Shown here: in pieces, positions 6,985 to 22,316 of the stretch
Layout: every line of letters starts with the position of its first letter
How positions within the stretch are numbered: position 1 is the stretch's first letter
From: a virus
Length of the DNA: 22,316 nt
IMG/VR virus record: IMGVR_UViG_3300031963_011940
Location: 1-22,316 of that record
Direction: 5' to 3' (one strand)
Notes under the pieces: generated by a model
Told to the model about the DNA's origin: nothing
Database searches by the model: none
What the model saw: the letters and a program-made list of their open reading frames with translations, nothing else
Position numbers and translations under genes: made by a program

Positions 6985-7176
6985 ATGGCTAACATTGATA
7001 TAAATGGAAATTTAGACTACTGGTATGAAGGAGAAGGTTCTACCAGTATTGGGCAAACAAGTGAAGATATTGGTATTCAAGAATATTGGTTTATGGGTGC
7101 TCCTACGGGGTACCTCATAGATTCTGAATTGATTGAAAATCAACCTTTTGCGTTTGCTGTGATGATTGGGTTCTAA
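6985..7176 (+). CDS. Small 63-aa protein with two YW-G motifs, likely virion-associated
   Basis: This is a short ORF 17 nt after the giant adhesin, on the same strand and probably the same transcript. The upstream sequence is TATAATAAAAATAT directly before ATG, with no Shine-Dalgarno. The protein contains two similar segments, 'LDYWYEGEG' (about residues 10-18) and 'QEYWFMGAP' (about 31-39), which suggests an internal duplication of a short strand-turn unit. There is no signal peptide or membrane segment. Its stop codon interlocks with that of the convergent gene on the minus strand. I do not recognise a named family. Position beside fibre genes suggests a minor structural protein, which is inference only. 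Confidence 0.7.
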   Translation: MANIDINGNLDYWYEGEGSTSIGQTSEDIGIQEYWFMGAPTGYLIDSELIENQPFAFAVMIGF

Positions 7177-7700
7177 ACCCTCTCACATTTTAAAAGCACT
7201 GTCACGCGGTCAATATTTTCCGCTGACAGTGCTTTTATTATTAATATATTGTCTTTCTGAAGATACTCTTCCCAATCAAGAACATCTAAGTCTCGGTTCT
7301 TAATATCATTGGTTATAAATGGTTTATTACCATTACAGATAGAAACCATATTGGGATAATTGTCGTAATCACAAGTTTGAATATCTAATAAAACAGATCC
7401 AGTAACAGTTGCTAAAAGAGTCCAGGCAACAACATTAAGATTGAATGGAACAGTAAAATAATTGACATCTTCACCCCCTACTAGGGATTCGGGCGTATTT
7501 ATGTCATAAGAAATGGTATAATATTCTCTTCCGCCTATAGGAATGATATTGGTAGCGTCACCGGCACCATTTTCACCACTACCATAGTATAATACATCAT
7601 TTATTTCATTGAATGCCAGTTCACCATTTTTTAAACTAGAAGGGGCTCCCGCGGATCCTACCCTTCTACGTTTTATCTTTATCGTACTATATTCTGGCAT
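7173..7700 (-). CDS. Fibre-type protein with N-terminal IKIKRR/GELAFNE module
   Basis: The protein has 175 residues from the ATG at 7700. The frame extends to a GTG at 7712, but that codon abuts the late-type promoter box (7713-7718), so ATG 7700 is the likelier start. The N-terminus (about residues 6-55) reads 'IKIKRRRVG', then 'LKNGELAFNEINDVLYYG', then a Gly/Asn-rich turn. Modules of this type are common at the N-termini of phage tail-fibre and virion-appendage proteins. The remainder is strand-rich and may form a beta-sandwich. The 60-aa gene at 15974-16156 is a second copy of the module alone. The last 15 or so codons are built into an inverted repeat that may act as a terminator for both strands. 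No enzyme motif is seen. A minor tail or fibre attachment role is inferred. Confidence 0.75.
   Translation of the reverse strand: MPEYSTIKIKRRRVGSAGAPSSLKNGELAFNEINDVLYYGSGENGAGDATNIIPIGGREYYTISYDINTPESLVGGEDVNYFTVPFNLNVVAWTLLATVTGSVLLDIQTCDYDNYPNMVSICNGNKPFITNDIKNRDLDVLDWEEYLQKDNILIIKALSAENIDRVTVLLKCERV
7192..7236. terminator. Putative bidirectional terminator hairpin inside a coding end
   Basis: AAAAGCACTGTCA (7192-7204) is perfectly complementary to TGACAGTGCTTTT (7224-7236). After a bulged C, GCGG (7206-7209) pairs with CCGC (7220-7223), leaving a loop of about 10 nt. T-rich sequence follows on the plus strand (CTTTTATTATTA) and on the minus strand (CTTTTAAAATG). The hairpin lies just past the stop of the plus-strand 63-aa gene and within the last codons of the convergent minus-strand gene. 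Confidence 0.75.
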
Positions 7701-7757: not shown

Positions 7758-7767
7758 TAAATAAATA
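7758..7767 (+). promoter_or_regulatory. Late-type promoter TAAATAAATA, 5 nt before ATG
   Basis: Two overlapping TAAATA boxes are present. The second (7762-7767) ends 5 nt before ATG 7773. This is the same spacing as at six other genes in the window. No ribosome-binding sequence lies between box and start. Confidence 0.6.
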
Positions 7768-7772
7768 AAAAT

Positions 7773-10700
7773 ATGGGAATTGAAAAAGTAACACAACAAC
7801 AAAGATTTACTTCAGATAATGTCATTGTTGGAGCAGATAGTAACCCTTTAGATACTGGACTATCTGTTTATGGGAAGATTACTAATACAGAAAGAATAAG
7901 TTCACGGGGTGAAATATACACAGATCGAAATTTAATTGCAACTGGAAATATTTCGGCCACCGATGCATCTTTTACGGGATTTCTATATGTTACCGGTGGG
8001 ATAGTTGCGCCGGGATTAACCACAGATGTTTCTCCTGATAAAATTAAAACAACTGGCGCAAAATTAAATGATGTTTTAAAAGTGACCGAAAATGCCGGTG
8101 TAACAGCCTATGCTCCTTCTCGTGTAAATGTAGAAGAATTATCATCAACAGCTATTTCACTTTTAGATGGAGCAACTATCAATTATGATGGAAATAATCA
8201 AACTTTTGTTGTAAAAAATCCTGAAGAAGCAATTGTATATGAATCTAGTTATATTAAACAATTAGCTAAATCTACTTGTGGCGATCTCACAAATCCCGGG
8301 TATGCGGCTATTACAAATGACAGTAGGGTAATAGCTTGGGGGCACTTACCTCAAAATATATTTGGTAGTACCGCCGTTGTTTCACCTTATGAGAACATAA
8401 GAGTACCATTTTGGGCAGAATATGATGGGCGTACGGGTGGGAGTGATTTTAGACCTTATGGTGGTGATATATTAGATACTTTGTCTGGTACAAGTATCGT
8501 TGATTTATACTGGAGTAACAATTGCGCCATGGCACTTCTTTCAAGTTCTAATGATAGTATAGATGGTACTGTTTGGGTAGCTGGTTATAACGCCAAAGGC
8601 TGGGGCGTTAACGACGGTCTAAGTCCCCAATCGGTTGTAAAAAATAAATTTGGTGGGTTATTTGCATTGGGCACTCTCACCTTTAATACCAGCGCAACAG
8701 TGGGGGGATCTAAAGCCATTACTGGATTAATTTTATTAAATGGAGAAAAGGATATTTGCGGCATTCAAAAATATTCTTCTACGCCGCAACAAGATATTAT
8801 TATTGATAAAACAAATTCACCTGAATTATCATCAGATTCATTTTATTATGTATCATTATTACCAAATGCAGGCAATTCTAATGCATCTATAAGGAGAATT
8901 AATCATTATGGTGAATTAGTGTCTTCACATAGCTATGCTGCAAATACATCGGGTCACCAATTATTAAATGCGACAGGTATTGCTATGGTCTCAGGAGATA
9001 ATGGAAAGAATTTATTATATGTGTGTGATACGGCGACAAATCAAAGAAAAATAAAAATATTTGATATTACGAATATTGCAGCAGGTGTTACACCATATAC
9101 AACAACTGAAATGATTTTAGTAACTGCCATTGGCACCGGCACCCAAAATCATATAGATGGAGACACAGATGGTCTTGTGGCACCAGTTTTTCATACATTA
9201 AAAAGAATTGCAATTGATCCGACAAATCATAGAATTGCTTATGTAACTGACCAACACAGGATAAAAAGAATATGGAGAAAAGATAATGGTCATTATAAAG
9301 TAAGGACTATTTCTAATGAAAATCCGGGTGATGAGACAGGTATATTCTCAGCGGCACCTGGCGCGGCGGTTGCAAGATTCACTGATCCATTCGGAATAGC
9401 AATATCTAATAATGGTAAAAATTTATTTATTGCAGATACTACGACTAAAAAAATACAAAAAGTTACCATCACAACTAATGATGAAAATAATTTTGATGGC
9501 ATCTCTGAATATTATGTAAATACAAATGTTGATCAGCCAGCACAATTTAATTTTCCTAAAGGAATAACAAAAGATAATAATGGAAATATATATATAGCAG
9601 ATAGTTCTAACAATGTAATTAGAAAAATAATTTATGATAATGTAAATAAATCTTATGGTAAAGTTACTACGATAGCCGGAAATCCAAACGGACCCGCGAT
9701 CGCAGCTGCAGCAGCCAATATACAATCAACTACCGGAAAATTATCAGCTGTGCGATTTAATGATCCCAGAGGTATAGCTTTTTCGCCTTCGGAAAATTCA
9801 TTATACGTAACAAACAAAGGAACACATTCAATCAGCAAAATAAGTTTAGATCCTGCCCTTTCTGCATTGATAGCTGTAAGTGCTATAGGTGCCACTACTA
9901 CTGGCGGTGTTTTATCAGGCGAAGGATTGAGTGGTAGTTTAGCAAAATTTTGGAATCCAATAAACTTATGTTATGGTGAAAGGAGCGGCAATAAATATAT
10001 TTGGGTAGTTAATAACAATGAAAAAATTACTTCTGGAAGTTTTAATAGTTGGCATTATATAAAGCAAATAGAAATCCAAGCTAATCACAATTACAAAATA
10101 ACAAATCTTACAAAAACTTGGGGTGATTATTCTAAAACCACTACACCCCTATCAACTAATTATCCCGCCATAAGTACTTTATTGCATAATCCACGTGCAA
10201 TTGTGTATGATTCAACTAGTGATTCATTATATTTTTCAAATAAAGGAACATCTATTCAAAAAATAAAATTTTCAGATAATAAAATTTATACAGTAGCAGG
10301 TGCAGCGACAGCTTCAAATTTAGCGGGTCCGGCTCTAGATGCTCGTTTTAGAGATATTAGTGGTTTGGCAATAAGTGGAACAGATATGTTCGTTGTGGAT
10401 GGCGGTAATAAAAAGATATGGAGAATAGAAAACTTCAGTTCGGATATACCCTCTAATAGAATAGTATCAGAATATATAGGAACTGGAGGTGCAGCTAATG
10501 CTAAGGATGTAAATGGTTATGGAGCACAGATTAAATTTTCTTTGCCTTCATACATGTTAGGTGGGAATGATAATGATTTTATTATTTCTACTTCAAATTT
10601 TATAAAAAGATTATATAAAAATGAAGATAATAATATTAATCTCGAAACTATTAATGGCACAGAAGCAAAGGGTTATGTTAATACCATAACAACAACATTA

Positions 10701-11918: not shown

Positions 11919-12382
11919 TCTTGTTTATCTTCTGGTAATTCAATATCACGTTCCTTAGCTACAGATTTCATTTTAGAGAGATAAACTATCATGGTTTCAG
12001 GTCTCTTTCCTCCGTGTTGAAAATCATTTCTTCTATTAATCAAATCCTTATAAATTTTCTTAAAACGCTCTTCTGAAATATCATAAAGATCAACATCTTT
12101 ATCTTCTCCAGAATATTTTTCTTCATTGTTTTGTAAGTAATCAATAAAGTCATCAAATTTCGACTGCTTTTCGGGAGAAGTAGAATAACCCAATTTTGTC
12201 ATTCTTGCCCAGTTTAATACTCTTCCTAAATTAGCCTTAGTAGGACTATCGTTAATGAATCTTTTTACAAATGCAATTTTCTCATCAACATCTTTGATTT
12301 TCTTGGCATCCGTTCTAGCATCTTGCCATTCAGTATTAAATTTATTAACAGTCTCTGTGTAGAATTGTTTAAAAGAACTCAT
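11915..12382 (-). CDS. Hypothetical charged 155-aa protein
   Basis: The protein starts 'MSSFKQFYTETVNKF' and is rich in Lys, Asp and Glu, with predicted helices throughout. There is no signal peptide, membrane segment or Cys cluster. Many proteins of T4-like and other large phages begin with a similar 'xxFKQF' segment, but I do not recognise this one. It lies 4 nt downstream of the MSMEG_6728-like gene on the same strand. It nevertheless has its own TAAATA box 5 nt before its ATG, overlapping the stop codon of the upstream gene. Its stop interlocks with that of the 1381-aa gene on the other strand. It is probably a small, late-expressed soluble protein of unknown function. Confidence 0.7.
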   Translation of the reverse strand: MSSFKQFYTETVNKFNTEWQDARTDAKKIKDVDEKIAFVKRFINDSPTKANLGRVLNWARMTKLGYSTSPEKQSKFDDFIDYLQNNEEKYSGEDKDVDLYDISEERFKKIYKDLINRRNDFQHGGKRPETMIVYLSKMKSVAKERDIELPEDKQD

Positions 12383-12386
12383 GTTG

Positions 12387-12842
12387 TTATTTACTCCATT
12401 TTATACCATGTCTACAATCTGGCCAGATATAACCAACAGAAGGATCTGCTTCTGGAAACACCTCTCCATAAAATACCGGATCCTTTTTCTTTAGAACACA
12501 TTGATGGGTGTAATGAATTTCTTCGTCTCCAAACCAAAAGGGTAATTCATTATTAGAAGAGAAAAAGTCCTTATAAAAAGCAATTTGGTCTTCAGTATTG
12601 TCTTTATATCCTCGTCTTTTCCATTCTCGGCAAGAAACAATTCCATATTCTACTAACTGATTAAAGTGCCCCCACCACATCCATTTGCATGGATCCCTAA
12701 ACCCTAATGTCTTATCTTGATCAGGCTTCATTTGGAATGATCTCAAAATACCCAAAACTTCTGCTCTTTGTTTTCCTAGTCTTCTATAATCCAAGACTCT
12801 TAAAGATTTTTCATAATCAGGATAAGGAAGAAATGTTTGCAT
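12387..12842 (-). CDS. MSMEG_6728-family conserved protein
   Basis: The protein has 151 residues from ATG 12842. It begins 'MQTFLPYPDYEKSLRVLDYRR' and continues 'LGKQRAEVLGILRSF'. Further on are 'DPCKWMWWGHFNQLVEYG', 'EWKRRGYKD', 'LPFWFGDEEIHYTHQCVL' and a closing 'YIWP'. These blocks are hallmarks of a conserved family (MSMEG_6728-type) of about 150-180 residues found in bacteria and phages. Some phage genomes label such proteins as pyrimidine-dimer glycosylase-like, but I cannot see the T4 endonuclease V active site. The function is unproven. The frame extends upstream to 12917, but the family's 'MQTFLPYPD' start and the divergent neighbour favour 12842. Its start region faces the 214-aa gene across a 14-nt palindrome. 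Confidence 0.85.
   Translation of the reverse strand: MQTFLPYPDYEKSLRVLDYRRLGKQRAEVLGILRSFQMKPDQDKTLGFRDPCKWMWWGHFNQLVEYGIVSCREWKRRGYKDNTEDQIAFYKDFFSSNNELPFWFGDEEIHYTHQCVLKKKDPVFYGEVFPEADPSVGYIWPDCRHGIKWSK
12388..12393 (-). promoter_or_regulatory. Late-type promoter box TAAATA, 5 nt before ATG
   Basis: On the minus strand this reads TAAATA-ACAAC-ATG (ATG at 12382). The box overlaps the TAA stop (12389-12387) of the preceding gene. The spacing to ATG is the same 5 nt as at the other late-type sites. Confidence 0.55.
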
Positions 12843-12857
12843 GGTTAATAAGTTCAG

Positions 12858-12871
12858 GGGTTTCGAAACCC
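12858..12871. promoter_or_regulatory. 14-nt palindrome GGGTTTCGAAACCC between divergent genes
   Basis: This is a perfect palindrome in the 43-nt gap between ATG 12842 (-) and ATG 12886 (+). Each half contains GAAACCC, the motif found before three other genes. It therefore presents the motif to both divergent genes and may also be an operator. Confidence 0.55.
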
Positions 12872-12879
12872 AATATATT
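12865..12879 (+). promoter_or_regulatory. GAAACC-N3-TATATT promoter-like element
   Basis: GAAACCCAATATATT lies 6 nt before ATG 12886. The hexamer TATATT is in the place that TAAAAT takes in the three sister elements (13537, 14723, 18096). The spacing to ATG equals that at 18117. It supports 12886 over the earlier in-frame ATG at 12841. Confidence 0.5.
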
Positions 12880-12885
12880 GATAAC

Positions 12886-13530
12886 ATGTTTAGAGTTGAA
12901 AAAATTGATAAGCTCAATGAGCTTAGTAGGCGGGCAAAATATGATAAAGCCTATATGGATGAACTTAAATTAGTAGCATTTACTTTGAATAAAGAGATTG
13001 ATCAAGATGAAAAACACAACTTTAATATTATTTTTGATTTTATCAAATCAAAAGATGCTGAGTATTTTTCTATTTTGAATGATGGATTTCATTGCAATGT
13101 TCCAATAAAGAGTGATGTGTTCGGACCAGATTGGAATGTTACTATAAGCTATCGTTCTTCTTATTATAATATTAATAAAAAAATGGGTTATTGGGGTTGT
13201 CATCTTTTCAGACAGAATACAGAATATAAAGGCTTATATGTAAAGAAAGGAAACACATATAAACGATATACAAAAAGAAAAGATATTTTAAATTTTTATT
13301 TCGATAAAGGATTGGGTACAACTACTACACAATTGCCTCTACCTGCACCTGAATTCAATAATGAAACCGCCATTGACATTAAAACCAATCTAGAGATGAT
13401 TCCTCGTTTTGTAACTAAGAGCATTATTATTACTAATCTTAAATTGATTCGTCGTTTTGTTAAAATTTATCATTGGAATGGAAAAGAAGAAATTGTCAGA
13501 GAACTTAAAAAGTATTCACACATCAGATAA
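12886..13530 (+). CDS. Hypothetical 214-aa protein
   Basis: The protein starts 'MFRVEKIDKLNELSRRAKY'. An in-frame ATG exists at 12841, but it overlaps the start codon of the divergent gene and lies upstream of the promoter-like element, so 12886 is preferred. The N-terminal third looks helical and charged. The middle has an aromatic stretch, 'ISYRSSYYNINKKMGYWG', with Cys and His nearby. The C-terminus is basic. There is no signal peptide or membrane segment. I do not recognise a family. It is the first gene of the plus-strand block that leads to the MoxR and VWA genes and carries the same promoter-like element as they do, so it may belong to the same expression class. Confidence 0.65.
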   Translation: MFRVEKIDKLNELSRRAKYDKAYMDELKLVAFTLNKEIDQDEKHNFNIIFDFIKSKDAEYFSILNDGFHCNVPIKSDVFGPDWNVTISYRSSYYNINKKMGYWGCHLFRQNTEYKGLYVKKGNTYKRYTKRKDILNFYFDKGLGTTTTQLPLPAPEFNNETAIDIKTNLEMIPRFVTKSIIITNLKLIRRFVKIYHWNGKEEIVRELKKYSHIR

Positions 13531-13536
13531 TCATCT

Positions 13537-13551
13537 GAAACCCCCTAAAAT
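13537..13551 (+). promoter_or_regulatory. GAAACC-N3-TAAAAT promoter-like element before moxR-like gene
   Basis: GAAACCCCCTAAAAT lies in the short gap upstream of the MoxR gene, 20 nt before its ATG. A weak hairpin (TCAGAT 13523-13528 with ATCTGA 13533-13538) overlaps its left edge and the stop of the previous gene. Confidence 0.55.
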
Positions 13552-13571
13552 TTAAACATCAATTAAAACAT

Positions 13572-14663
13572 ATGGCTACTACATCAAACACCACAATCAG
13601 AACCATCAGTCCGAAATCAGCAACCAAAGCAATTAAGCGTGCGATGTCTAAGCGTCGTCCAATTATGCTCTGGGGTCCTCCGGGAATCGGTAAGAGTGAC
13701 GTTGTTGCACAAATCGGTGCAGAACAAGGTCGCGAAGTAATCGACATTCGTCTGGCTCTCTGGGATCCTACGGATATTAAGGGAATGCCTTACCTTAATG
13801 AAAAAGACGGCACCATGAATTGGGCTCCTCCAAGTGAATTGCCGCATGATCCAAATAGCAAAGCAATTGTCTTCTTGGACGAAATTGTTTCGGCACCTCC
13901 TGCTGTTCAAGCTGCAGCTTATCAGTTGATCTTGAATCGCCGTGTAGGTAAGTATCGTCTGCCAGATGGTGTAGACATTGTAGCTGCAGGTAATCGTGAA
14001 GGTGATCGCGGCGTTACCTATAAGATGCCCGCTCCATTGGCTTCGCGGTTTATTCATCTCGAAATGACAGTGTCTAATGATGACTGGGTAGATTGGGCTG
14101 TGAATCATAATGTTCATCCCGACGTTATTGGTTATATTTCTTTCGCAAAGCAAGATCTTTTTAATTTTGATCCCCAATCTCCATCCCGTTCTTTTGCATG
14201 TCCGCGTACCTGGAATTTCGTATCTGATCTTCTCTGGGATGAAGATGAAGATGTTAATTCTTTGACAGATCTCGTATCGGGAGCTATTGGAGATGGATTG
14301 GCTTTGAAGTTCGTAGCACATCGTAAGCTTTGTGGTAAGTTACCTAAGGCAATTGATATTCTTGAAGGTAAAGTAACAGAGCTTAAGAATAAAGAAAGTC
14401 GTGAAGTCTCTGCAATGTATTCTCTGACGGTTTCTCTCTGTTATGAATTGAAAGAATTGGCAAATGCTAAGACGAAGAAATGGCATGATTATGCTGATCG
14501 CTACTTCCGTTTCATGATGGATAATTTTCCAACAGAATTGGTTATCATGGGTGCTAAGGTGGCTTTGACTAATTATGAATTGGATATTGATCCAAAGAAG
14601 CTAACCTCGTTTGATGATTTCTTTAATAAGTATGGTAAGTATGTTTTTGATAGTAATGATTGA
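13572..14663 (+). CDS. MoxR-type AAA+ ATPase
   Basis: The protein has 363 residues. Walker A is 'GPPGIGKS' at residues 35-42, Walker B is 'AIVFLDEI' at about 98-105, and a sensor-1 strand 'VDIVAAGNREGDRG' begins at about 134. The order and spacing fit the MoxR/AAA_5 class of AAA+ ATPases. Such ATPases typically act with a VWA-domain partner, remodelling protein complexes or inserting metal cofactors. The partner is present at 14745. A strong terminator and a fresh promoter-like element separate the two genes. Arginine is encoded almost entirely by CGT/CGC here, unlike the AGA-rich fibre genes, which may mean high expression or a different origin. The role in the phage is unknown. Virion assembly or host takeover are both possible. 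Confidence 0.93.
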   Translation: MATTSNTTIRTISPKSATKAIKRAMSKRRPIMLWGPPGIGKSDVVAQIGAEQGREVIDIRLALWDPTDIKGMPYLNEKDGTMNWAPPSELPHDPNSKAIVFLDEIVSAPPAVQAAAYQLILNRRVGKYRLPDGVDIVAAGNREGDRGVTYKMPAPLASRFIHLEMTVSNDDWVDWAVNHNVHPDVIGYISFAKQDLFNFDPQSPSRSFACPRTWNFVSDLLWDEDEDVNSLTDLVSGAIGDGLALKFVAHRKLCGKLPKAIDILEGKVTELKNKESREVSAMYSLTVSLCYELKELANAKTKKWHDYADRYFRFMMDNFPTELVIMGAKVALTNYELDIDPKKLTSFDDFFNKYGKYVFDSND

Positions 14664-14675
14664 TAAGTAGCCTAT

Positions 14676-14721
14676 AATGAGAGCTATCTATACGGGTGTA
14701 TAGATAGCTCTCATTTCTTTT
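14676..14721 (+). terminator. Strong intrinsic terminator
   Basis: ATGAGAGCTATCTATAC (14677-14693) pairs perfectly with GTATAGATAGCTCTCAT (14698-14714) around a GGGT loop. An additional A-T pair at 14676/14715 gives 18 bp. TTCTTTT follows. It lies 13 nt after the stop of the MoxR gene. Confidence 0.93.
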
Positions 14722-14722
14722 A

Positions 14723-14737
14723 GAAACCCCATAAAAT
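14723..14737 (+). promoter_or_regulatory. GAAACC-N3-TAAAAT promoter-like element before VWA gene
   Basis: GAAACCCCATAAAAT starts 2 nt after the terminator's T-run. TAAAAT ends 7 nt before ATG 14745. It is the second of three near-identical elements with the same internal offset. Confidence 0.6.
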
Positions 14738-14744
14738 AATTCAT

Positions 14745-15977
14745 ATGAAAAAGAAGCTCGAAAAGATTGAAAATATTAATATTCCAGCTGTTGAAGAAAA
14801 ATTGGTCAAGGCAGCTGTTTCGTTGCTAATTAAGCATCCTTTCTTTGGTCAGATGGTTCCGCACCTCAAACGTACTCGCGCAGAGGATTGGTGTGATACG
14901 GCTGCAACAGATGGTCGTAATTTCTTTTATAATCCAGCATTCATTCATGCACTCTCTACACAAGAGACGGTGTTTCTCTATGCACATGAAGTGCTTCATA
15001 ATTGTTTTGAGCATCATATTCGTAGAGGAAATAGAGAACCTAAGCTTTGGAATGTTGCTGCAGACTTTGCTATTAATCTAATTCTCTCCGATAATAATAT
15101 CGGAAAGCAAATTCCCGGTACTCTCTTAGACCAACAATTCAGAGATCTATCTGCCGAGCAAATCTATGATAAGATTAAAGAAGAATTGGATAAGAATAAT
15201 ACATTTGCCGGTATGACGTTAGATGAGATGGTAGAAAAACTTCTGGATGAACATCTTTCTGGCGGTAAGGATGATGATGAGAAAGATGGTAAGGGTAAAG
15301 GAAAGCGTCCTAATATGGAAGGCATGACAGAAGAAGAAAAGCAAAAACTTCGCGATGAAATCAAATCACAGCTAATGGCAGCTGCTCAGAATTGTGCTGG
15401 TAATATTCCAAAGGGAATGGGCCGTATTATTGAAGGATTATCTTCACCGAAAATGAATTGGAGAGAAATTCTTCGTAATCAAATTCAAAGCACTATTCGC
15501 TCTGATTATTCTTTTCTTACACCTTCTAAGAAAGGCATGTCTACACCATTTAAATTACCGGGCATGAAGAGAGATGAAACTCTAGACATTTGTGTCGGTA
15601 TTGATGCTTCTGGATCTATTAATGAAGATGATTTAAAAGCATTCTTGAGTGAGATTTATGGTATTATGTCACAGTATAGTGATTATCAAATTCATGTATG
15701 GAGTTATGATACGGTTGTATATAATCCCGAAGTCTTCCGAGCTGATGAAGGAAGAGATATTTCTACTTATGAGGTAAAGGGCGGCGGAGGTACCGATTTC
15801 AATGCATCATATGAATATATGAAAGATAATTCTATTGACGCAAAACTTTATATTAATTTCACCGATTTGTATCCAGGTAATGGATTTGGTGATCCAACCT
15901 ATTGTGATACTATTTTCGTAGTTAGAGGTAACAATAAAGACACAGCACCATTCGGATTAACCATCCGGATGGATTAG
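14745..15977 (+). CDS. DUF2201-type metallopeptidase-like / VWA-domain protein, MoxR partner
   Basis: The protein has 410 residues in two parts. The N-terminal part has the zinc-peptidase-type motif HEVLH (residues 81-85) followed by 'FEHH' and 'WNVAADFAINLIL', as in the DUF2201 N-terminal (VWA-associated metallopeptidase-like) family. A charged Lys/Glu/Asp-rich linker spans about residues 170-210. The C-terminal part is a VWA-like domain with an intact MIDAS: D-A-S-G-S at 287-291 and the Thr-Asp of 'GGGGTDF' at 350-351. Proteins of this type usually sit next to a MoxR ATPase, as here. The known pairing suggests a chaperone-like complex. Whether the peptidase site is active cannot be told. 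The gene has its own promoter-like element, and its TAG stop interlocks with the stop of the convergent 60-aa gene. Confidence 0.92.
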   Translation: MKKKLEKIENINIPAVEEKLVKAAVSLLIKHPFFGQMVPHLKRTRAEDWCDTAATDGRNFFYNPAFIHALSTQETVFLYAHEVLHNCFEHHIRRGNREPKLWNVAADFAINLILSDNNIGKQIPGTLLDQQFRDLSAEQIYDKIKEELDKNNTFAGMTLDEMVEKLLDEHLSGGKDDDEKDGKGKGKRPNMEGMTEEEKQKLRDEIKSQLMAAAQNCAGNIPKGMGRIIEGLSSPKMNWREILRNQIQSTIRSDYSFLTPSKKGMSTPFKLPGMKRDETLDICVGIDASGSINEDDLKAFLSEIYGIMSQYSDYQIHVWSYDTVVYNPEVFRADEGRDISTYEVKGGGGTDFNASYEYMKDNSIDAKLYINFTDLYPGNGFGDPTYCDTIFVVRGNNKDTAPFGLTIRMD

Positions 15978-16156
15978 AGAACCGGAATAGCTGAAGTAGA
16001 TAATGTATCAGTACTAGTACCAGAAAGATCTTGAATTTCTGTACCTATATAAAGAGTGTTATCTAATTCATTAAAAGCTAATTCACCCGGATCTAAAACA
16101 GTGGGTGGTCCTGGATCACCCGCTAAACGCCTTTTAATTTGCCATACAAAAGCCAT
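15974..16156 (-). CDS. 60-aa stand-alone GELAFNE fibre module
   Basis: The protein starts 'MAFVWQIKRRLAGDPGPPTV' and continues 'LDPGELAFNELDNTLYIGTEIQ'. This matches the N-terminal module of the 175-aa protein at 7173-7700 (IKIKRR...GELAFNEINDVLYYG) but stops soon after it. The frame is open to 16258, but ATG 16156 is preceded by a TAAATA box at exactly 5 nt, and the longer form would overlap the DUF1501 gene. It may be a small attachment or capping protein, or a shortened paralogue of a fibre gene that keeps its own late-type promoter. No stop or frameshift inside the module suggests decay. Confidence 0.7.
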   Translation of the reverse strand: MAFVWQIKRRLAGDPGPPTVLDPGELAFNELDNTLYIGTEIQDLSGTSTDTLSTSAIPVL

Positions 16157-16161
16157 AAAAA

Positions 16162-16167
16162 TATTTA
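16162..16167 (-). promoter_or_regulatory. Late-type promoter box TAAATA, 5 nt before ATG
   Basis: On the minus strand this reads CCTAAATA-TTTTT-ATG (ATG at 16156). It lies back to back with the box of the DUF1501 gene at 16193-16198. Confidence 0.6.
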
Positions 16168-16192
16168 GGTGAAATAGTTTCCAAATAATTGA

Positions 16193-16198
16193 TAAATA
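16193..16198 (+). promoter_or_regulatory. Late-type promoter box TAAATA before DUF1501 gene
   Basis: This reads GATAAATA-ATAAT-ATG, with ATG at 16204. The 5-nt spacing is the same as before the fibre genes, which puts the DUF1501 gene in the late-type expression class. Confidence 0.6.
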
Positions 16199-16203
16199 AT
16201 AAT

Positions 16204-17469
16204 ATGAATAGAAGAGATTTCCTCTATGCTGGCCTCTTCGGAGGGTTGGGCCTAACAACCGGTGATGTTCTTAGAGCTCAGTCTGAGTCTAAGATTTCTG
16301 CTAAAGCACAGTCAATTATTCACATTTACTTGCCGGGCGGCGCAGCAGCACAAGAAACATGGGATCCAAAAATACATGCTCCTATTGAATTCAGAGGTCC
16401 ATTAGGTTCAGTTCAAACAAGTATACCCGGGGTACACTTCTCTGAGTATATGAAAGAAACAGCTAAGATTGCTAACAAGATCACAGTTGTTCGTTCTATG
16501 ACTCACGGGGAAGCAGCACATGAACGCGGAACACATAATATGTTTACTGGATATCGCCCTTCTCCTGCTATTAAGTATCCTTCTTTTGGTTCTGTTGTGG
16601 CACATGAATTTGGAAGTAGAAATTATCTTCCTCCTTATGTTTGTGTTCCGAATATGAATTCTGAAGATGCCGGTACCGGATATCTTTCAAAAGCTTTTGG
16701 TCCCTTCTCATTAGGATCAGACCCAGCATCAAAAGATTTTGCTGTTAGAGATTTAAAAATGAATGCAGGTGTAGACGAAGCTAGATTCAATCGCCGCCGT
16801 AGTATTCTAGAAACAGTAGATAATCATTTCCGTTCTATTGAAGGTGCTGATGCCATTGCATCTATGAACAAGTTTTATCAACAAGCGTATGATCTTGTTT
16901 CTTCTCAACAAGCCAGAGAAGCATTTGAACTTTCTAAAGAACCAGAACATATTCGTAATGCTTATGGTCAAACACAAGCTGGTCAAAGATTCTTAATGGC
17001 AAGAAGATTAGTAGAAGCTGGAGTAAGATTCGTTTCTGTTGTTTATGGTGGATGGGATCATCATGCTGCTATCGGCGCTAATATCAAAAATCAATTACCA
17101 GCATTCGATCAAGCATATGCTGCGTTAATTAAAGATCTAGAACAAAGAGGAATGCTTAATGATACAATCGTAATGGTATCTTCTGAATTCGGCAGAACTC
17201 CTAAGATCAATAAAGATGCCGGCAGAGACCATTGGCCAAGAGTATTCTCAGTAGCTTTTGCAGGTGGTGGATTTAAGGAAGGCTATATTCATGGAGCATC
17301 CAATGCTACGGGTGCTGAACCAGAAGAAAAACCTTTGACCGTTGAAAATATGGCTGCTACTATCTATAATCAAATTGGTATCGACCCTACTAAACATTTG
17401 ATGTCGGATGGAAATAGACCAGTATCTATTGTTTATAATGGAACCGTCGAACAAGACTTATTAGCTTAA
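16204..17469 (+). CDS. DUF1501 family Tat-exported protein
   Basis: The protein has 421 residues, about full length for the family. A TTG upstream (16189) would overlap the promoter box, so ATG 16204 is chosen. The N-terminus is a twin-arginine signal: N-R-R-D-F-L at residues 2-7, then a Gly/Leu-rich hydrophobic stretch to about residue 20. DUF1501 hallmarks follow: 'IYLPGGAAAQETWDPK', 'GEAAHERGTHNMFTGYRPSP' from 102, 'GGWDHH' at 282-287, 'SEFGRTP' at 327-333 and 'GRDHWP' at 340-345. The His/Asp-rich motifs resemble the metal site of the alkaline phosphatase/sulfatase superfamily, to which DUF1501 is usually assigned. The family is expanded in Planctomycetota and Verrucomicrobiota, usually beside c-type cytochrome (DUF1549/DUF1553) genes, which are absent here. 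The substrate is unknown. I infer capture from a host. Confidence 0.95.
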   Translation: MNRRDFLYAGLFGGLGLTTGDVLRAQSESKISAKAQSIIHIYLPGGAAAQETWDPKIHAPIEFRGPLGSVQTSIPGVHFSEYMKETAKIANKITVVRSMTHGEAAHERGTHNMFTGYRPSPAIKYPSFGSVVAHEFGSRNYLPPYVCVPNMNSEDAGTGYLSKAFGPFSLGSDPASKDFAVRDLKMNAGVDEARFNRRRSILETVDNHFRSIEGADAIASMNKFYQQAYDLVSSQQAREAFELSKEPEHIRNAYGQTQAGQRFLMARRLVEAGVRFVSVVYGGWDHHAAIGANIKNQLPAFDQAYAALIKDLEQRGMLNDTIVMVSSEFGRTPKINKDAGRDHWPRVFSVAFAGGGFKEGYIHGASNATGAEPEEKPLTVENMAATIYNQIGIDPTKHLMSDGNRPVSIVYNGTVEQDLLA

Positions 17470-17473
17470 TTTT

Positions 17474-18094
17474 ATGGATCAATATAGAGTAACACAAATT
17501 ATTCAAGAACTCATTAATGATAAAAATAATGAGTTATCACAATTAAACAATTATCTTAGTGAAGCACAGACTAGTTCTTGGAACTATGTGAATCCCCAAG
17601 ATTACCAAAATATGGTAAACGAAAAGGATATGGCATGGGGCAGAGTAAGTGATTTACAAAATCAATTAACTTCTGTACAACAAAACTATGATATGTTTGT
17701 ATCTAATTCTTCTAATTCAACTGCAGAGTTAGATGCTATGCGTTCTGTTTTAGAAGCTGTACGAGGTGAAAGGGATTTTTTCCAATCACAATTAGAATCT
17801 AAAGATTCATCTATTGCAGATCTGTCTAATACAGTAGAATCAAAAAATGTCGAATTGGCATCTATTCAAGGTTCTGTTAATGATTTGCAAATTAAAATTA
17901 CAGAACAAAATACTATTGTAGCAGATTTAAATTCACAACTTAATACAAAGCAAGAAGAAATTCTTTCATTGAAACAAAAGTTAGGAGACTTTGAAAGTAA
18001 GCTCCTTAATCTTAAAAGTAAAATCAAAGCCGAAATGGAAGAAGCTACTAGCGAAGTTGAAGAAGCTTTTGAAGAATCTAATTTGATTGATTAG
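17474..18094 (+). CDS. Coiled-coil protein, 206 aa
   Basis: It begins 4 nt after the DUF1501 stop, so the two are very likely on one mRNA. The sequence is dominated by heptad-like patterns rich in Leu, Gln, Glu and Ser ('LESKDSSIADLSNTVESKN', 'LNTKQEEILSLKQKLG'), from about residue 50 to the end. The tail is acidic ('EEATSEVEEAFEESN'). There is no signal peptide, transmembrane segment or enzymatic motif. It may be a long, elongated dimer or trimer. Coiled coils of this type occur in phage structural and scaffold proteins, but no family is recognised. Its link to the DUF1501 protein is by position only. Confidence 0.75.
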   Translation: MDQYRVTQIIQELINDKNNELSQLNNYLSEAQTSSWNYVNPQDYQNMVNEKDMAWGRVSDLQNQLTSVQQNYDMFVSNSSNSTAELDAMRSVLEAVRGERDFFQSQLESKDSSIADLSNTVESKNVELASIQGSVNDLQIKITEQNTIVADLNSQLNTKQEEILSLKQKLGDFESKLLNLKSKIKAEMEEATSEVEEAFEESNLID

Positions 18095-18095
18095 G

Positions 18096-18110
18096 GAAAC
18101 CATTTAAAAT
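18096..18110 (+). promoter_or_regulatory. GAAACC-N3-TAAAAT promoter-like element before lipoprotein operon
   Basis: GAAACCATTTAAAAT is followed by GAGGAT and ATG 18117. It has the same 9-nt offset between the two boxes as the elements at 13537 and 14723. GAGG also offers the only start-proximal purine-rich sequence in the window that could serve as a weak ribosome-binding site. Confidence 0.6.
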
Positions 18111-18116
18111 GAGGAT

Positions 18117-18686
18117 ATGAAAAAAATCCTCATTTGTTCAGTCCTAGTAGGAGCCACACTTATCTCTTGCACAGAGAAGACAGATGTGGCTCTCACTGTT
18201 TTTAGAGATAAGCAAGAAGATAAATTGTTGCAGCAAGTGGGTGAAGGAGAAGCTGCTATTGAATTTTATCGTAGGCAATATGGTGTACTAAAAGAAAGGT
18301 TAGTACGACTTAGGACTATGGAAATTCTTTTTCAGAAGCAAGCAGATCAAGCCATGGCAGACGGTAAGATTACCCGATCGTCTTTCTTGGATCAAAAGTT
18401 AGCGATGCTTCATGATAGGATTCCAAAAGCCGAAAAAGAGCTAAATGGCTTCTATGAAGTTCTAGAAAGGAAAAGAGAAGAGATTCGTTTAATCAAAGAC
18501 GAAACATATATCAATACTGCCATGGCTAAGACTACTGCGGATCTACCTGCTGTATCTGCTTATGAAAAACGAAAAGAAACCATAGATAATCTTGTTGAAT
18601 CACTAAGAGAAAAAGCTAGTAGATCTGAAGCTCTATTGCAAGTATCTCTTAATGAAGAAAGAATGATCCAAAATGAAACTAAGTAA
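18117..18686 (+). CDS. Coiled-coil lipoprotein, 189 aa
   Basis: The N-terminus 'MKKILICSVLVGATLISC' is a classical lipoprotein signal with lipobox L-I-S-C and the lipidated Cys at residue 18. The mature part is highly charged and helical with heptad patterns ('GEGEAAIEFYRRQYGVLKERL', 'EKELNGFYEVLERKREEI'). It should be exported and membrane-anchored in the host envelope. It heads an operon with a second lipoprotein (14-nt overlap) and a UVDE endonuclease. I do not recognise the family. Phage-encoded lipoproteins often block superinfection or serve lysis (outer spanins), but those are usually shorter and neither role is shown here. Possibly host-derived. Confidence 0.82.
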   Translation: MKKILICSVLVGATLISCTEKTDVALTVFRDKQEDKLLQQVGEGEAAIEFYRRQYGVLKERLVRLRTMEILFQKQADQAMADGKITRSSFLDQKLAMLHDRIPKAEKELNGFYEVLERKREEIRLIKDETYINTAMAKTTADLPAVSAYEKRKETIDNLVESLREKASRSEALLQVSLNEERMIQNETK

Positions 18687-19425
18687 AATTATTCCTCTTA
18701 TTGCAATTTTTCTAGTTGCATGTGAACCAGAAAAGAAGATATTCATCCCCGATGATGTAATTCTTGAGTATACACCTACTCTTCTAACAAAAAAAGAAGC
18801 CTTTGAATTTCGTATTCAAAAAATTAAAGAAGAAAAAGCATTATTCGAAAAGCTCTATAGAGAAATTCAATCACCGAATGCTAGAGAGAATACTTACTTA
18901 AAAATTAGAGAATTAGATAAGGAAGAAGCAAAATTAAAAAATCAATTATTTAATATTTTAAATATTGCAGAAGATAATGCTGTTAAGAAACATGACAGCC
19001 TATTACCAGTAAATGATGAATATTTAAATGATAAAACATTGCAGTCAGAAAAAGTATCATATCCTTTCTGGCAACCAAATGGCGAACCAATTCTTTATCC
19101 TAATATCAATAAATTTGATGTTGTAAAGGAATTTAAATATGTAGAAAAATTCAAAGGACATTTTGATGAAAAAAATATTTGGAGAATTTATAACAAATAC
19201 CCTCAAGTATTAGACATTCGTACACCAGCTGGTTGGAGATATTGGCAATTAGTCCAGTCTGCTTGTTGCCATTTGTCTACATACGTACCAACAGAAGATT
19301 GTTTAATGGATCTAGCTAAAGAAATTTACGAAGAAAGGGGTATTAAAGATCATGAAACCCTTCATTATAAGTATGGTTATCAGAGACCAGATCATGTTTT
19401 AAAATGGAATAAAAATAGTCTATGA
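18673..19425 (+). CDS. Second lipoprotein, 250 aa
   Basis: The start overlaps the previous gene by 14 nt. 'MKLSKIIPLIAIFLVAC' is a lipoprotein signal with lipobox L-V-A-C (Cys 17). The next 100 residues are charged helices ('AFEFRIQKIKEEKALFEKLY', 'LDKEEAKLKNQL'), resembling the coiled-coil plan of the preceding lipoprotein. The C-terminal half is different: globular and aromatic-rich ('PFWQPNGEPILYP', 'TPAGWRYWQLVQSACCHLS'), with a Cys pair and a further Cys. The two products may act together at the envelope. It ends in an ATGA overlap with the UVDE gene. No family recognised. Confidence 0.8.
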   Translation: MKLSKIIPLIAIFLVACEPEKKIFIPDDVILEYTPTLLTKKEAFEFRIQKIKEEKALFEKLYREIQSPNARENTYLKIRELDKEEAKLKNQLFNILNIAEDNAVKKHDSLLPVNDEYLNDKTLQSEKVSYPFWQPNGEPILYPNINKFDVVKEFKYVEKFKGHFDEKNIWRIYNKYPQVLDIRTPAGWRYWQLVQSACCHLSTYVPTEDCLMDLAKEIYEERGIKDHETLHYKYGYQRPDHVLKWNKNSL

Positions 19426-20312
19426 GATTAGGATTATGTTGTTTATTGTTGGGTAACGAAGCTAGTGAATTTAGGTCTACTACAGTTACGTGGGCTAAAA
19501 AGAATAATGATAAAATATACAATAAATTAAAAAATATATATGATCATAATTTAAATGAATTATGTAAAGTAGTAGATTATTGTATTAATAATAATATTTG
19601 GCATTATAGAATTTCATCTTCTTTATTCCCGTTAGCTGATCTTGAACCTTATTCTGATTACTTCAACGATTATATCGATAATAAAGAATATTGGTTGATG
19701 TCAAGAAAAAAAATTAATGAATTTATTTCTTTGGGTGGCAGACTGTCAATGCATCCTTCACAATTTTGTATTATTACTAATCCTGATAAAAAAATATCTT
19801 CTTCTTCATTAACTAATCTTGAAATGCATGGCGCTATCATGTCAAATTTAGGAATTCATGAGAACTTTCAATATCCCATCAACATTCATCTCTCTAATGG
19901 CAAAAGATCTCAGGAAGCTATCAATGCGGCGCTTTTAAATATAGATAAATTATCAATGAAAGTTCGTGCCAGACTAGTATTCGAAAATGAAGATAAAAGT
20001 TACTGGACTTGGCAAAAAATACATAGAGCTTTTCCCAATACTCCTATTACCTTAGATTATCATCATAGATTGATTAATAATGAAGGAGAGCCAGAATGGA
20101 AAGCTCATGAAGCATGCGTCGGCTCTTGGACTAGATATGGAGTAAAAGCCCTATTCCATTATAGTGAAGGTAGAGATCATTCATTAGATAGATCTCATTC
20201 TGATTATATTAATGAATTACCGCGATATTCTGATATGGATTTAGAAATTGAAGCTAAACAAAAAAATCTAGCTATCTTAGATATAAGAAACAAACAATAT
20301 ATTTTTGACTAA
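19422..20312 (+). CDS. uvsE: UV-damage endonuclease, UVDE/UvsE family
   Basis: The protein has 296 residues, near the usual length of bacterial UVDE. It is a metal-dependent TIM-barrel enzyme that nicks DNA 5' of UV photoproducts and some other lesions. The visible family motifs, which carry the expected metal ligands, are 'HYRISSSLFP', 'MHPSQF' (His 111), 'NIHLS' (His 156), 'FENED' (Glu 188), 'LDYHH' (Asp 212, His 215), 'FHYSEG' (His 246) and 'DLEIEAKQK' (Glu 275 or 277). The start overlaps the stop of the second lipoprotein gene as ATGA, so translation is probably coupled. In a phage it would repair sunlight damage to the viral genome. That suits an aquatic surface habitat, which is inference. 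Its grouping with lipoproteins is unusual. Confidence 0.95.
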   Translation: MRLGLCCLLLGNEASEFRSTTVTWAKKNNDKIYNKLKNIYDHNLNELCKVVDYCINNNIWHYRISSSLFPLADLEPYSDYFNDYIDNKEYWLMSRKKINEFISLGGRLSMHPSQFCIITNPDKKISSSSLTNLEMHGAIMSNLGIHENFQYPINIHLSNGKRSQEAINAALLNIDKLSMKVRARLVFENEDKSYWTWQKIHRAFPNTPITLDYHHRLINNEGEPEWKAHEACVGSWTRYGVKALFHYSEGRDHSLDRSHSDYINELPRYSDMDLEIEAKQKNLAILDIRNKQYIFD

Positions 20313-20315
20313 ATA
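20310..20315 (+). promoter_or_regulatory. Late-type promoter box TAAATA, 5 nt before ATG
   Basis: This reads CTAAATA-ATTTT-ATG, with ATG at 20321. The box incorporates the TAA stop codon of the UVDE gene. Confidence 0.5.
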
Positions 20316-20320
20316 ATTTT

Positions 20321-20506
20321 ATGTCTGAAGATCTTCAAATGAAGGTTTCTATCTTAGAACAAGATATAATTTCTTTAAAATTTCAAAAAGAATGTCTTGA
20401 AAAAGAAAATGACAAATTAAAATTAGAACTTAAAAAGTATGCCACACATTGTAAACATCACGGAGATAGAATATGTAACACCAACTGCGGAAGGTGTTCA
20501 AGATGA
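20321..20506 (+). CDS. 61-aa coiled coil with Cys/His-rich tail
   Basis: Residues 1-40 form a heptad-patterned helix ('VSILEQDIISLKFQKECLEKE'). The last 20 hold a dense Cys/His cluster (HCKHHGDRICNTNCGRC) that could bind a metal. Start choice is supported by the TAAATA box 5 nt upstream. It lies 8 nt after the UVDE stop. The next ORF begins inside its 3' end in another frame. No family recognised. It may be a small regulatory or assembly protein. Confidence 0.6.
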   Translation: MSEDLQMKVSILEQDIISLKFQKECLEKENDKLKLELKKYATHCKHHGDRICNTNCGRCSR

Positions 20507-20657: not shown

Positions 20658-21187
20658 CCTTGGTTAGACCATACAGCGTGTATGGTACATGCCGCGGAAG
20701 CTGACAAAGAAATTTCATTAGTATTTGCAACTAATTCAAGGTCTAATGCCATGCCTGGACTCAATACAAAACTGGTTAATGATCCGGTTCTACGAAGAGC
20801 AACACTTTGACCTGTAAATACATCGCCAGAATCATTAACAATAGATATTTTCTTTGCGGCATTAGATGGGAACGCCCCGAAAGAGGTACCGACATTATAT
20901 TCTATAATATTCCAGTTATTAGTTGTGAGAGGCGTTACCACGGTAGTACCACCGCCGCCTCCCGTACCACCGGCTATATCACCGGCATTTACAATATAAG
21001 TTAAAACGGCGGTGTGTGGATATACATCAACAGATGAAGTGGGCTCTACACCAGTTTCAGCATAGGCAACACGGGTTGTTGACACATATGGAAATCTAGT
21101 ATCTGTATCACTAATTTTAATGAATTTACCATATTCCAATGAAGCTGGATTATTACGTACATCGGTATCAAAATCGGTATATGCCAT
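20654..21187 (-). CDS. 177-aa virion-type protein with glycine linker
   Basis: The N-terminal half ('MAYTDFDTDVRNNPASLEYG', 'FPYVSTTRVAYAE') is followed by a flexible 'GGTGGGGG' linker at about residues 77-84. The C-terminal half is strand-rich ('SIVNDSGDVFTGQSVALRR', 'SFVLSPGMALDLELV') and looks like a small beta-sandwich. There is no signal peptide or enzyme motif. Two domains joined by a Gly linker, a late-type promoter and position between fibre genes suggest a minor tail or head-decoration protein. No specific family recognised. Confidence 0.7.
   Translation of the reverse strand: MAYTDFDTDVRNNPASLEYGKFIKISDTDTRFPYVSTTRVAYAETGVEPTSSVDVYPHTAVLTYIVNAGDIAGGTGGGGGTTVVTPLTTNNWNIIEYNVGTSFGAFPSNAAKKISIVNDSGDVFTGQSVALRRTGSLTSFVLSPGMALDLELVANTNEISLSASAACTIHAVWSNQG
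20668..20686. terminator. Hairpin at a convergent junction, possible terminator
   Basis: ACCATACA (20668-20675) pairs perfectly with TGTATGGT (20679-20686) around a GCG loop, within the last codons of the minus-strand gene and 10 nt past the plus-strand stop. There is no T-run on either side, so its role as a terminator is uncertain. Confidence 0.35.
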
Positions 21188-21192
21188 ACAAT

Positions 21193-21200
21193 TATTTATG
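21193..21200 (-). promoter_or_regulatory. Late-type promoter box CATAAATA, 5 nt before ATG
   Basis: On the minus strand this reads GCATAAATA-ATTGT-ATG (ATG at 21187). It is nearly identical to the box at 7713-7720 and back to back with the box of the divergent fibre gene. Confidence 0.6.
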
Positions 21201-21207
21201 CTTTTGA

Positions 21208-21215
21208 AATAAATA
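21208..21215 (+). promoter_or_regulatory. Late-type promoter box AATAAATA, 5 nt before ATG
   Basis: This reads AATAAATA-AAAGC-ATG, with ATG at 21221. The same 5-nt spacing is seen at the other late-type starts. Only 33 nt separate the two divergent genes here. Confidence 0.6.
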
Positions 21216-21220
21216 AAAGC

Positions 21221-22316
21221 ATGCCCAGTATTACATTTCCTTCGGGGAGTATATTAACCCCCACTGTATTAGAACTATCTACTAACCTAGCTAGTCTTTA
21301 CAGCACTGTGTGCGGAGAAAGTGCAAATTGGGGTAATGCCCTGCCTTTAGATCATTCTAAATGGGATGCTACGTTTGATACGGTAAGTACTTTGAGTGGA
21401 GATTGGAATAGTGTTTACTCTGCAGTTTCTATCAACAGTGGATCATGGTCGTATCAAGGTAATGATATTAAACCATTAACTGCAGGATGGCAAAATACCT
21501 ATGGTACAGTATCTTCACTTAGTTCAAATTGGGATGCTACGTTTGATACGGTAAGTACTTTGAGTGGAGATTGGAATAGTGTTTACTCTGCAGTTTCTAT
21601 CAACAGTGGATCATGGCAAAATACTTATGGTACAGTATCTTCTCTTAGTTCAAATTGGGATGCTACCTATGCATTAATGTCAAGTAATTCTGCTAATTGG
21701 GACGGCGCATATACCACTTTAAATGATGTATCAGCTAGTTTTGGCGATTCATTAACTTGGGTTAAAAATAATTCTTCAACAATGTATGTTGATAGATTAG
21801 GAGTTAATACAGACATTAATTTATTGGCAAATAATTTAAAATTAGCAGTTCAAGGTGATACTGTAATATATGGAAATTTATCTTCACTGGGTACTACAAC
21901 ATTAGTAAATGTTACGGCAAACGTAACTGATGCATTATCAGTTGTTAATCCTGGATTCGGTGCACCCAATGCAATATTCATAAGTCAGGGGGGTCCTGGC
22001 GCCGGTATAAAGATGAACAACGCCGGATCCGGACCTATGATGACATTGGAAGGAAATGGGAATGTGGGTATAGGTACAGGAACACCTAATGAGAAACTGA
22101 CAGTAAATGGCAATATTTCTGGTAATGGTGTGATATATGCCTCGGGTGGAAATAGTAATTTATGGAATTCATCTACTACTTTATTTGCTGGATATTCTGC
22201 TGTTTGGCAAAGCAATGTAGTAACAACTAGTTCTTCATCGGGTCGATGGAATGCAGCTTATAGTTCTTTGACAGGTACTAGTGCTAAGTGGGATAATACA
22301 TTCAATGTTGTATCTT
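21221..22316 (+). CDS. Repeat-rich tail-fibre protein (3' partial)
   Basis: The frame stays open from ATG 21221 to the window end, at least 365 residues. Residues about 35-165 are tandem units with a Trp roughly every 14 residues ('SSNWDATFDTVSTLSGDW', 'NSVYSAVSINSGSW'), a repeat style typical of long trimeric phage fibres. Then comes a strand-rich shaft with 'VGIGTGTPNEKLTVNGNISG', the pattern often found ahead of S74-type chaperone domains. 'NLWNSSTTLFAGYSAVW' follows, and then more Trp repeats running off the edge. Part of the repeat region is duplicated at the DNA level. It is very likely a tail-fibre or receptor-binding shaft protein. Its C-terminal domain is outside the window. Confidence 0.85.
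   Translation, partial: MPSITFPSGSILTPTVLELSTNLASLYSTVCGESANWGNALPLDHSKWDATFDTVSTLSGDWNSVYSAVSINSGSWSYQGNDIKPLTAGWQNTYGTVSSLSSNWDATFDTVSTLSGDWNSVYSAVSINSGSWQNTYGTVSSLSSNWDATYALMSSNSANWDGAYTTLNDVSASFGDSLTWVKNNSSTMYVDRLGVNTDINLLANNLKLAVQGDTVIYGNLSSLGTTTLVNVTANVTDALSVVNPGFGAPNAIFISQGGPGAGIKMNNAGSGPMMTLEGNGNVGIGTGTPNEKLTVNGNISGNGVIYASGGNSNLWNSSTTLFAGYSAVWQSNVVTTSSSSGRWNAAYSSLTGTSAKWDNTFNVVS
21362..21448 (+). repeat. 87-nt direct repeat, copy 1
   Basis: This stretch, from TGGGATGCTACGTTTGATAC to CAGTGGATCATGG, recurs without a mismatch at 21530-21616. It encodes 29 residues containing two Trp units of the fibre repeat. Confidence 0.9.
21530..21616 (+). repeat. 87-nt direct repeat, copy 2
   Basis: Identical to 21362-21448, offset by 168 nt. 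An adjoining shorter repeat (21488-21542, recurring at 21614-21668 with two mismatches) shows that the array was assembled by more than one duplication. Confidence 0.9.

Follow-up and report, generated by a model that had tools for sequence, protein, structure and literature searches.

A GAAACC-N3-TAAAAT motif as a probable start-codon-proximal promoter of early genes in a lineage of T4-type phages

Results

The window analysed here is a whole IMG/VR virus record (IMGVR_UViG_3300031963_011940; 22,316 nucleotides [nt]; G000), in which a pair of boxes, GAAACC-N3-TAAAAT, precedes four genes as a putative promoter. Three of the sites are exact and one is a variant, and all lie on the plus strand, at 12865 (GAAACCCAATATATT), 13537 (GAAACCCCCTAAAAT), 14723 (GAAACCCCATAAAAT) and 18096 (GAAACCATTTAAAAT). 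The variant (GAAACC-CAA-TATATT, 12865–12879) ends 6 nt from the ATG at 12886 of a gene for a protein of 214 amino acids (aa; 12886–13530, +) for which a family search gave no match. GAAACC-CCC-TAAAAT (13537–13551) is 20 nt from the start of a MoxR-type AAA ATPase gene (13572–14663, +), with a predicted leader of ~14 nt, while GAAACC-CCA-TAAAAT (14723–14737) is 7 nt from the ATG at 14745 of a gene for a DUF2201 metallopeptidase-like/VWA protein (14745–15977, +) and GAAACC-ATT-TAAAAT (18096–18110) is 6 nt from the ATG at 18117 of a 189-aa gene (18117–18686, +), previously labelled a lipoprotein. The positions and the distances of 6, 6, 7 and 20 nt given in an initial annotation of this DNA were all reproduced, and the fixed offset that it described between the boxes extends, as a 3-nt spacer, to every exact site, including those in relatives. 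A terminator-like hairpin (14676–14715, +; −27.3 kcal/mol, z −8.7) follows the MoxR gene just ahead of the VWA promoter.

Relatives were reached through the DUF1501 gene of the window (G001, 31.8 kilobases [kb]; G002, 21.1 kb; G003, 46.2 kb; G004, 20.2 kb) and have ~79–94% DNA identity to it over the main shared blocks; G002 is 99.9% identical to G001 and was left out of counts. Two further records, G036 (28.3 kb) and G051 (63.5 kb), were found through a scan of IMG/VR for GAAACCCNNTAAAAT-N5..7-ATG, which returned 46 stretches, the records behind 23 of which were scanned whole. Together with G000, G001, G003 and G004 these form the six-record set used below. Genes were called by a simple longest open reading frame (ORF) rule with ATG starts, so individual starts may be wrong. 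The 12865 site, for example, becomes part of the ORF itself if that is read from an upstream ATG at 12841, and the orthologue in G003, where the site reads GAAACC-CTT-TAAATT, favours the start at 12886. The flank of the MoxR-VWA hairpin is visible in G001 and G003. So, too, is a conserved palindrome (GGTTTCGAAACC, 12859–12870), which consists of two back-to-back GAAACC boxes between the 214-aa gene and a divergent gene for a pyrimidine dimer DNA glycosylase of the T4 denV type (12387–12842, −; Pfam PF03013, E 9e-14). The minus-strand box (GAAACC-CCT-GAACTT, 12850–12864) precedes the denV-like gene as the presumed partner of the 12865 site; its second box is weak in the window and reads TATCTT, 5 nt to the ATG, in G003.

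The exact motif occurs three times in the 22-kb window, compared to a mean of 0.02 over 100 dinucleotide shuffles, with 0 of 100 reaching three. When up to two mismatches were allowed, the nine matches (shuffle mean, 5.5; nine reached by 12 of 100 shuffles) were within chance, and the case for the motif therefore depends on its exact copies and on relatives. A one-mismatch match at 18675, within the start of a coding sequence, was dismissed as chance. Across G000, G001, G003 and G004 there were nine exact copies, while 900 permutations of the letters averaged 0.048 (next highest, three). With the spacer length varied from 0 to 24, GAWACC-Nk-TAAAAT occurred 12 times at k = 3, once at 17, once at 22 and at no other length. 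In the six records, all 18 exact copies, which include orthologues and represent 12 distinct loci, end 0–30 nt before a predicted gene start, positions that make up 2.0% of the sequence. An equal frequency inside coding sequence, named in the initial annotation as evidence against the promoter class, was not seen (0 of 18 within coding sequence). A looser form of the motif ended in the same interval in 31 of 34 cases; of the three exceptions, two are the 214-aa site with the ORF taken from its upstream ATG and one is close to the left edge of the window. Control patterns in these records gave 0 matches for a 4-nt spacer, 0 for reversed boxes, and four, all coding, for a 2-nt spacer.

Between diverged orthologous pairs, identity was 89/90 in GAAACC, 83/90 in TAAAAT and 22/45 in the spacer, and the flanks of the same pairs were identical at 149/225 (15 nt upstream) and 44/75 (5 nt downstream) positions. 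By this measure, selection maintains both boxes and holds the spacer at 3 nt, while the spacer sequence is free to vary. In an alignment of the 18 sites, upstream columns were far below the boxes in information, except for a short ATC(T) adjoining GAAACC, owed mostly to the repeated flanks of G036; ACCATCY, restricted to G036 and G051, was rejected as part of the core motif.

The search in related phages that the initial annotation had proposed recovered the motif upstream of genes in sequence new to it. G001–G004 carry sites orthologous to those of the window and further sites ahead of additional genes. In these close relatives, GATACC-CCT-TAAAAT precedes a 156-aa ExoX-C-like gene, GAAACC-CGA-TATAAT a KaiC/RecA-like gene, and GAAACC-CTT-TATAAT a 119-aa gene followed by what is, judging from its sequence, presumably a ThyX-like gene. 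A 540-aa helicase gene has the motif in five further loci (L109, L167, L403, L404 and L414); in G051 the site of this gene differs from it by one letter. The motif was densest in G036, with seven exact copies in 2.2 kb before genes of ~65–95 aa, four of them 6 nt from the ATG, and one end of G051 is similar to this stretch. Tandem, apparently paralogous genes of ~60–100 aa were also observed in L398 (5717–7690), L420 (3307–4525) and G001 (29936–30368 in window orientation); they have a W(M/L)(L/M)AK(I/L)KYG-like tail, and several starts overlap the end of the preceding gene. Most single matches listed in wider IMG/VR scans look unrelated, and those in G010 and G011 fall inside coding sequence (repeated genes in G010) and are attributed to chance. 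There were 0 exact copies in 23 records of named jumbo phages, including PA5oct, Phosso, Atu_ph07 and XaC1, and no enrichment in the larger relatives G031–G033.

The GAAACC sites are distinct from a second class of sites with the late-type box TAAATA. The six records have 274 predicted genes between them. A GAAACC site is present within 50 nt of 34 of these genes and TAAATA 4–7 nt from the ATG of 61, with no gene carrying both (P ~1e-4 assuming independent genes, which orthologues are not). This bears out the separate second class of the initial annotation, as does the finding that none of its four genes has TAAATA at the late position. GAAACC or its variants precede the MoxR, VWA, helicase, KaiC/RecA-like, ExoX-C-like and denV-like genes; the TAAATA class includes the DUF1501 gene (in the window, G032 and G033), a 992-aa gene of G001 and G003 that we take to be PSD1-like, and several others. 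In the window, TAAATA lies 5 nt before the ATG at 7773 (7762–7767, +), a 155-aa gene starting at 12382 (12388–12393, −), a 60-aa gene starting at 16156 (16162–16167, −), the DUF1501 gene at 16204 (16193–16198, +), a 61-aa gene at 20321 (20310–20315, +), a 177-aa gene starting at 21187 (21193–21198, −) and the ATG at 21221 of a gene that runs beyond the window (21210–21215, +). TAAATA at −11 to −6 matches the late promoters of T4-type phages, and a gp55-like sigma factor (phrog_234; E 2e-27 in G032, 6e-24 in G051) is present in four of nine records searched (G031, G032, G033 and G051), which explains the TAAATA class; the other five, all short fragments, gave no match, with none on the window.

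Both classes sit unusually close to the start codon. In the GAAACC class, 24 of 34 box-to-ATG distances are 5–7 nt, and the same 24 of 34 have TANNNT with its first T ~12 base pairs (bp) before the start codon, a mark of bacterial leaderless genes in published work (PMC3160421, PMC12340547). Where TAAATA occurs within 50 nt upstream, it is at 5–6 nt in 51 of 69 genes of the six-record set and, in G031–G033, in 51 of 120; in other T4-type phages (79 loci) it is at 5–6 nt in 5 of 223 and at 27–30 nt in 93 of 223. The T4 late box, of 8 bp, starts at −13 (PMC2988020), so TAAATA followed by 5 nt places +1 on the A of the ATG. A Shine-Dalgarno-like motif lies ahead of 12 of 199 genes (6%) in the six records and 19 of 440 in G031–G033, compared to 657 of 1344 (49%) in other T4-type phages. 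Because the predicted +1 of both classes usually coincides with the ATG or adjoins it and Shine-Dalgarno motifs are so rare, most genes with either promoter class probably produce leaderless messenger RNA (mRNA). Predicted leaderless expression had been missed by the initial annotation and is probably a more general feature than the motif. Within the titles and abstract openings covered by an open-access literature search, there was no account of the motif or of a leaderless T4-type phage.

With TAAAAT as a −10 element (−12 to −7), GAAACC occupies −21 to −16, consistent with the −10-like second box and the upstream placement first proposed. A −35 hexamer 16–18 bp from the −10, the layout of sigma70 early promoters, was not found: over the 18 sites the mean best match to TTGACA was 2.61, compared to a background of 2.55, with TTG in two. 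Nor is there an extended −10 (TGn): the first spacer base is T in 1 of 18 sites, and the second is G in 3 of 18. The T4 MotA box sits 12±1 bp above the −10 (PMC2988021); GAAACC is 3 bp away at every exact site. The claim that GAAACC resembles neither a −35 box nor a MotA box thus agrees with both comparisons. A hairpin promoter of the virion RNA polymerase type was rejected, as three folded sites gave no consistent stem-loop.

Among other features of the window, two UV-damage repair enzymes occur in one 22-kb stretch (Pyr_excise, 12387–12842, −; UvdE, 19422–20309), and the minus-strand proteins at 7173–7700 and 15974–16156 have a common IKRR...GELAFNE...LY-G stretch, like a module used twice. 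The DUF1501 gene (16204–17466) lies under a late-type promoter, and G001 and G003 carry a second DUF1501-like gene; such genes are typical of Planctomycetota and Verrucomicrobiota and are here found in phage genomes. The phage host is probably a member of the Verrucomicrobiota because, among bacteria, the DUF1501 protein matches Chthoniobacteraceae best (69–70%), followed by other Verrucomicrobiota and Planctomycetota.

Discussion

The best explanation of these observations, with a probability of roughly three in four, is that GAAACC-N3-TAAAAT is the promoter of early or prereplicative genes in this lineage of uncultured T4-type phages. From the genomes we infer its promoter activity, timing, start point and factor; the timing in particular is drawn from gene content and the G036 tiny-gene cluster, where the motif is densest and whose tandem arrangement suggests a resemblance to an immediate-early region. 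TAAAAT would serve as a −10 element for the host RNA polymerase, and GAAACC would stand in for the absent −35 as the second specificity element, probably recognised by a dedicated factor. Transcription would start ~7 nt past TAAAAT, on or beside the A of the ATG at most class genes and mostly 12–22 nt upstream of it at the remainder, while late genes would be read from TAAATA, 5 nt from the ATG, by the gp55-like sigma, with +1 on the A of the ATG. A fuller version, put forward tentatively and with somewhat less than even odds, is that a virion-borne or immediate-early phage factor steers the host polymerase through GAAACC in the spacer, with early and late promoters both set on the start codon and the mRNA of most genes that have a promoter to themselves leaderless and free of Shine-Dalgarno sequences.

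A related genome offers a counterpart. G032 (227 kb) has instead a TTG-N3-TTCCCC-N11-TAA(T/G)AT class, mostly 6 nt from the ATG (-N6-ATG(ATG)), packed before tiny tandem genes and densest at 60–76 kb (L366–L368 represent G032 40001–100000). Its TTCCCC element is located just below the −35, and TTG is at the proper −35 spacing in 22 of 39 sites of this class. The lipoprotein (the 189-aa protein, 39% identical to its G032 orthologue), KaiC/RecA-like and 109-aa genes are of GAAACC type here and of the TTCCC class in their G032 orthologues.

Several observations weigh against an early promoter read by a dedicated factor. The helicase gene (whose start in G032 is uncertain), a 167-aa gene and the gene at 59201 of G051 are without TTCCC in G032; the latter two have variant boxes. 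G036 and G051 are linked to the lineage of the window through homologues in G031–G033 (38, 37 and 27 match pairs for G051, fewer for G036), the motif and the late box at N5, and their direct protein matches to G000–G004 are few and short. Six G036 sites have the common upstream flank ACCATCY and so are not independent, and 10 of 34 distances in the GAAACC class are 1 or 18–28 nt, so leaderless transcription is not universal. As for the factor, T4 MotA and AsiA found no match by phmmer among the ORFs of nine records (incomplete genomes) in a search that found the T4 control, and no second sigma (region 2) appeared, each record having at most one sigma-like protein, gp55-like, in four of the nine. 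The separate recognition factors once suggested for the two classes are therefore borne out on the late side, where the proposed search for a phage sigma or activator did find the gp55-like sigma of relatives; it turned up no MotA, AsiA or second sigma, and no candidate reader of GAAACC.

Two alternatives of similar standing, each possible but doubtful beside the early-promoter reading, differ from it in timing or in what reads the spacer box. If GAAACC were bound by an activator that the phage makes early, and which takes over from the −35 contact as MotA with AsiA does in T4, these would be middle-type promoters. The class genes serve DNA replication, repair and nucleotide metabolism, and T4 middle promoters likewise combine a host −10 with a phage element and no −35 (PMC2988021). 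Against this stand the 3 bp, rather than 12±1, between GAAACC and the −10, the phmmer result for MotA and AsiA, and the densest use before tiny tandem genes of immediate-early appearance; PF09114 had no match either, but its controls were likewise silent.

The other is that the host's own holoenzyme reads GAAACC-N3-TAAAAT without a phage factor. Immediate-early genes require the host polymerase or a virion-borne factor, as established for T4, so an immediate-early use of GAAACC would need the host polymerase, perhaps together with a virion-borne factor, and the corresponding class of G032 retains TTG at the −35 position. A host promoter motif was sought in 19 Verrucomicrobiota and Planctomycetota genomes, which may not include the true host, and GAAACCNNNTANANT was rarer there than its reversed control (56 vs. 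106 matches); on that count the motif is not a host promoter.

It is improbable that the motif is an mRNA element, either a translation signal or a repressor site. Its closeness to the ATG and the near absence of Shine-Dalgarno motifs would suit such a role, but a TANNNT located 12 bp ahead of the start codon is a published mark of leaderless promoters (PMC3160421), and the boxes keep their 3-nt spacing at distances to the ATG that range between 5 and 28 nt. Moreover, the VWA site sits behind the terminator-like hairpin, so that a separate promoter is needed there. Less probable still is that the phage encodes a single-subunit RNA polymerase whose promoter is the entire 15-mer; the compact 15-bp site does resemble such promoters, but PF00940 was unmatched in the nine records, including the 227-kb G032, although the controls were silent too and the genome of the window lineage is incomplete. 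Chance matches in an AT-rich genome, to which the two-mismatch count in the window would conform, are refuted for the exact sites by spacing, placement and conservation and have a negligible probability.

As an early promoter, the GAAACC class combines traits of several known systems. Like T4 middle promoters it keeps the −10, replaces the −35 with a short element and serves genes of DNA metabolism; it differs in the 3-bp placement, an unrelated sequence and the lack of any MotA or AsiA found. With T4 early promoters (sigma70 −35/TGn/−10) it has in common a probable use for early tiny genes, but that layout is matched by the TTCCCC class of G032, whereas the GAAACC class has no −35. The PeSL promoter/stem-loop cassettes of T4-type phages, in which small early genes each have a promoter cassette, are similar in their per-gene cassettes and recall the repeated flanks of G036, but no consistent stem-loop occurs at GAAACC. 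T4 late promoters (TATAAATA, gp55) correspond to the TAAATA class of the window and to the gp55-like sigma of its relatives, though TAAATA is 5–6 nt from the ATG here and peaks at 28–30 nt in other T4-type phages. Bacterial leaderless promoters, such as those of Deinococcus-Thermus, are alike in TANNNT, 6 nt to the ATG and scarce Shine-Dalgarno motifs; their −10 can act alone (PMC12340547), while here an invariant GAAACC is attached.

If the early-promoter reading is correct, these phages, whose probable host phylum has hardly been studied, would have promoters of a geometry absent from the literature searched: a −10 with a spacer box 3 bp away and no −35. Both promoter classes would lie at the start codon, whereas T4-type relatives keep leaders of ~23 nt and Shine-Dalgarno sequences. 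The motifs would be of practical use in such phages, as guides to where genes start and to which expression class they belong, and the lineage would provide a test system for the redirection of polymerase without −35 contacts and for phage reliance on leaderless translation. The exchange of GAAACC here for TTCCCC in G032 would then show turnover of promoter specificity between related phages.

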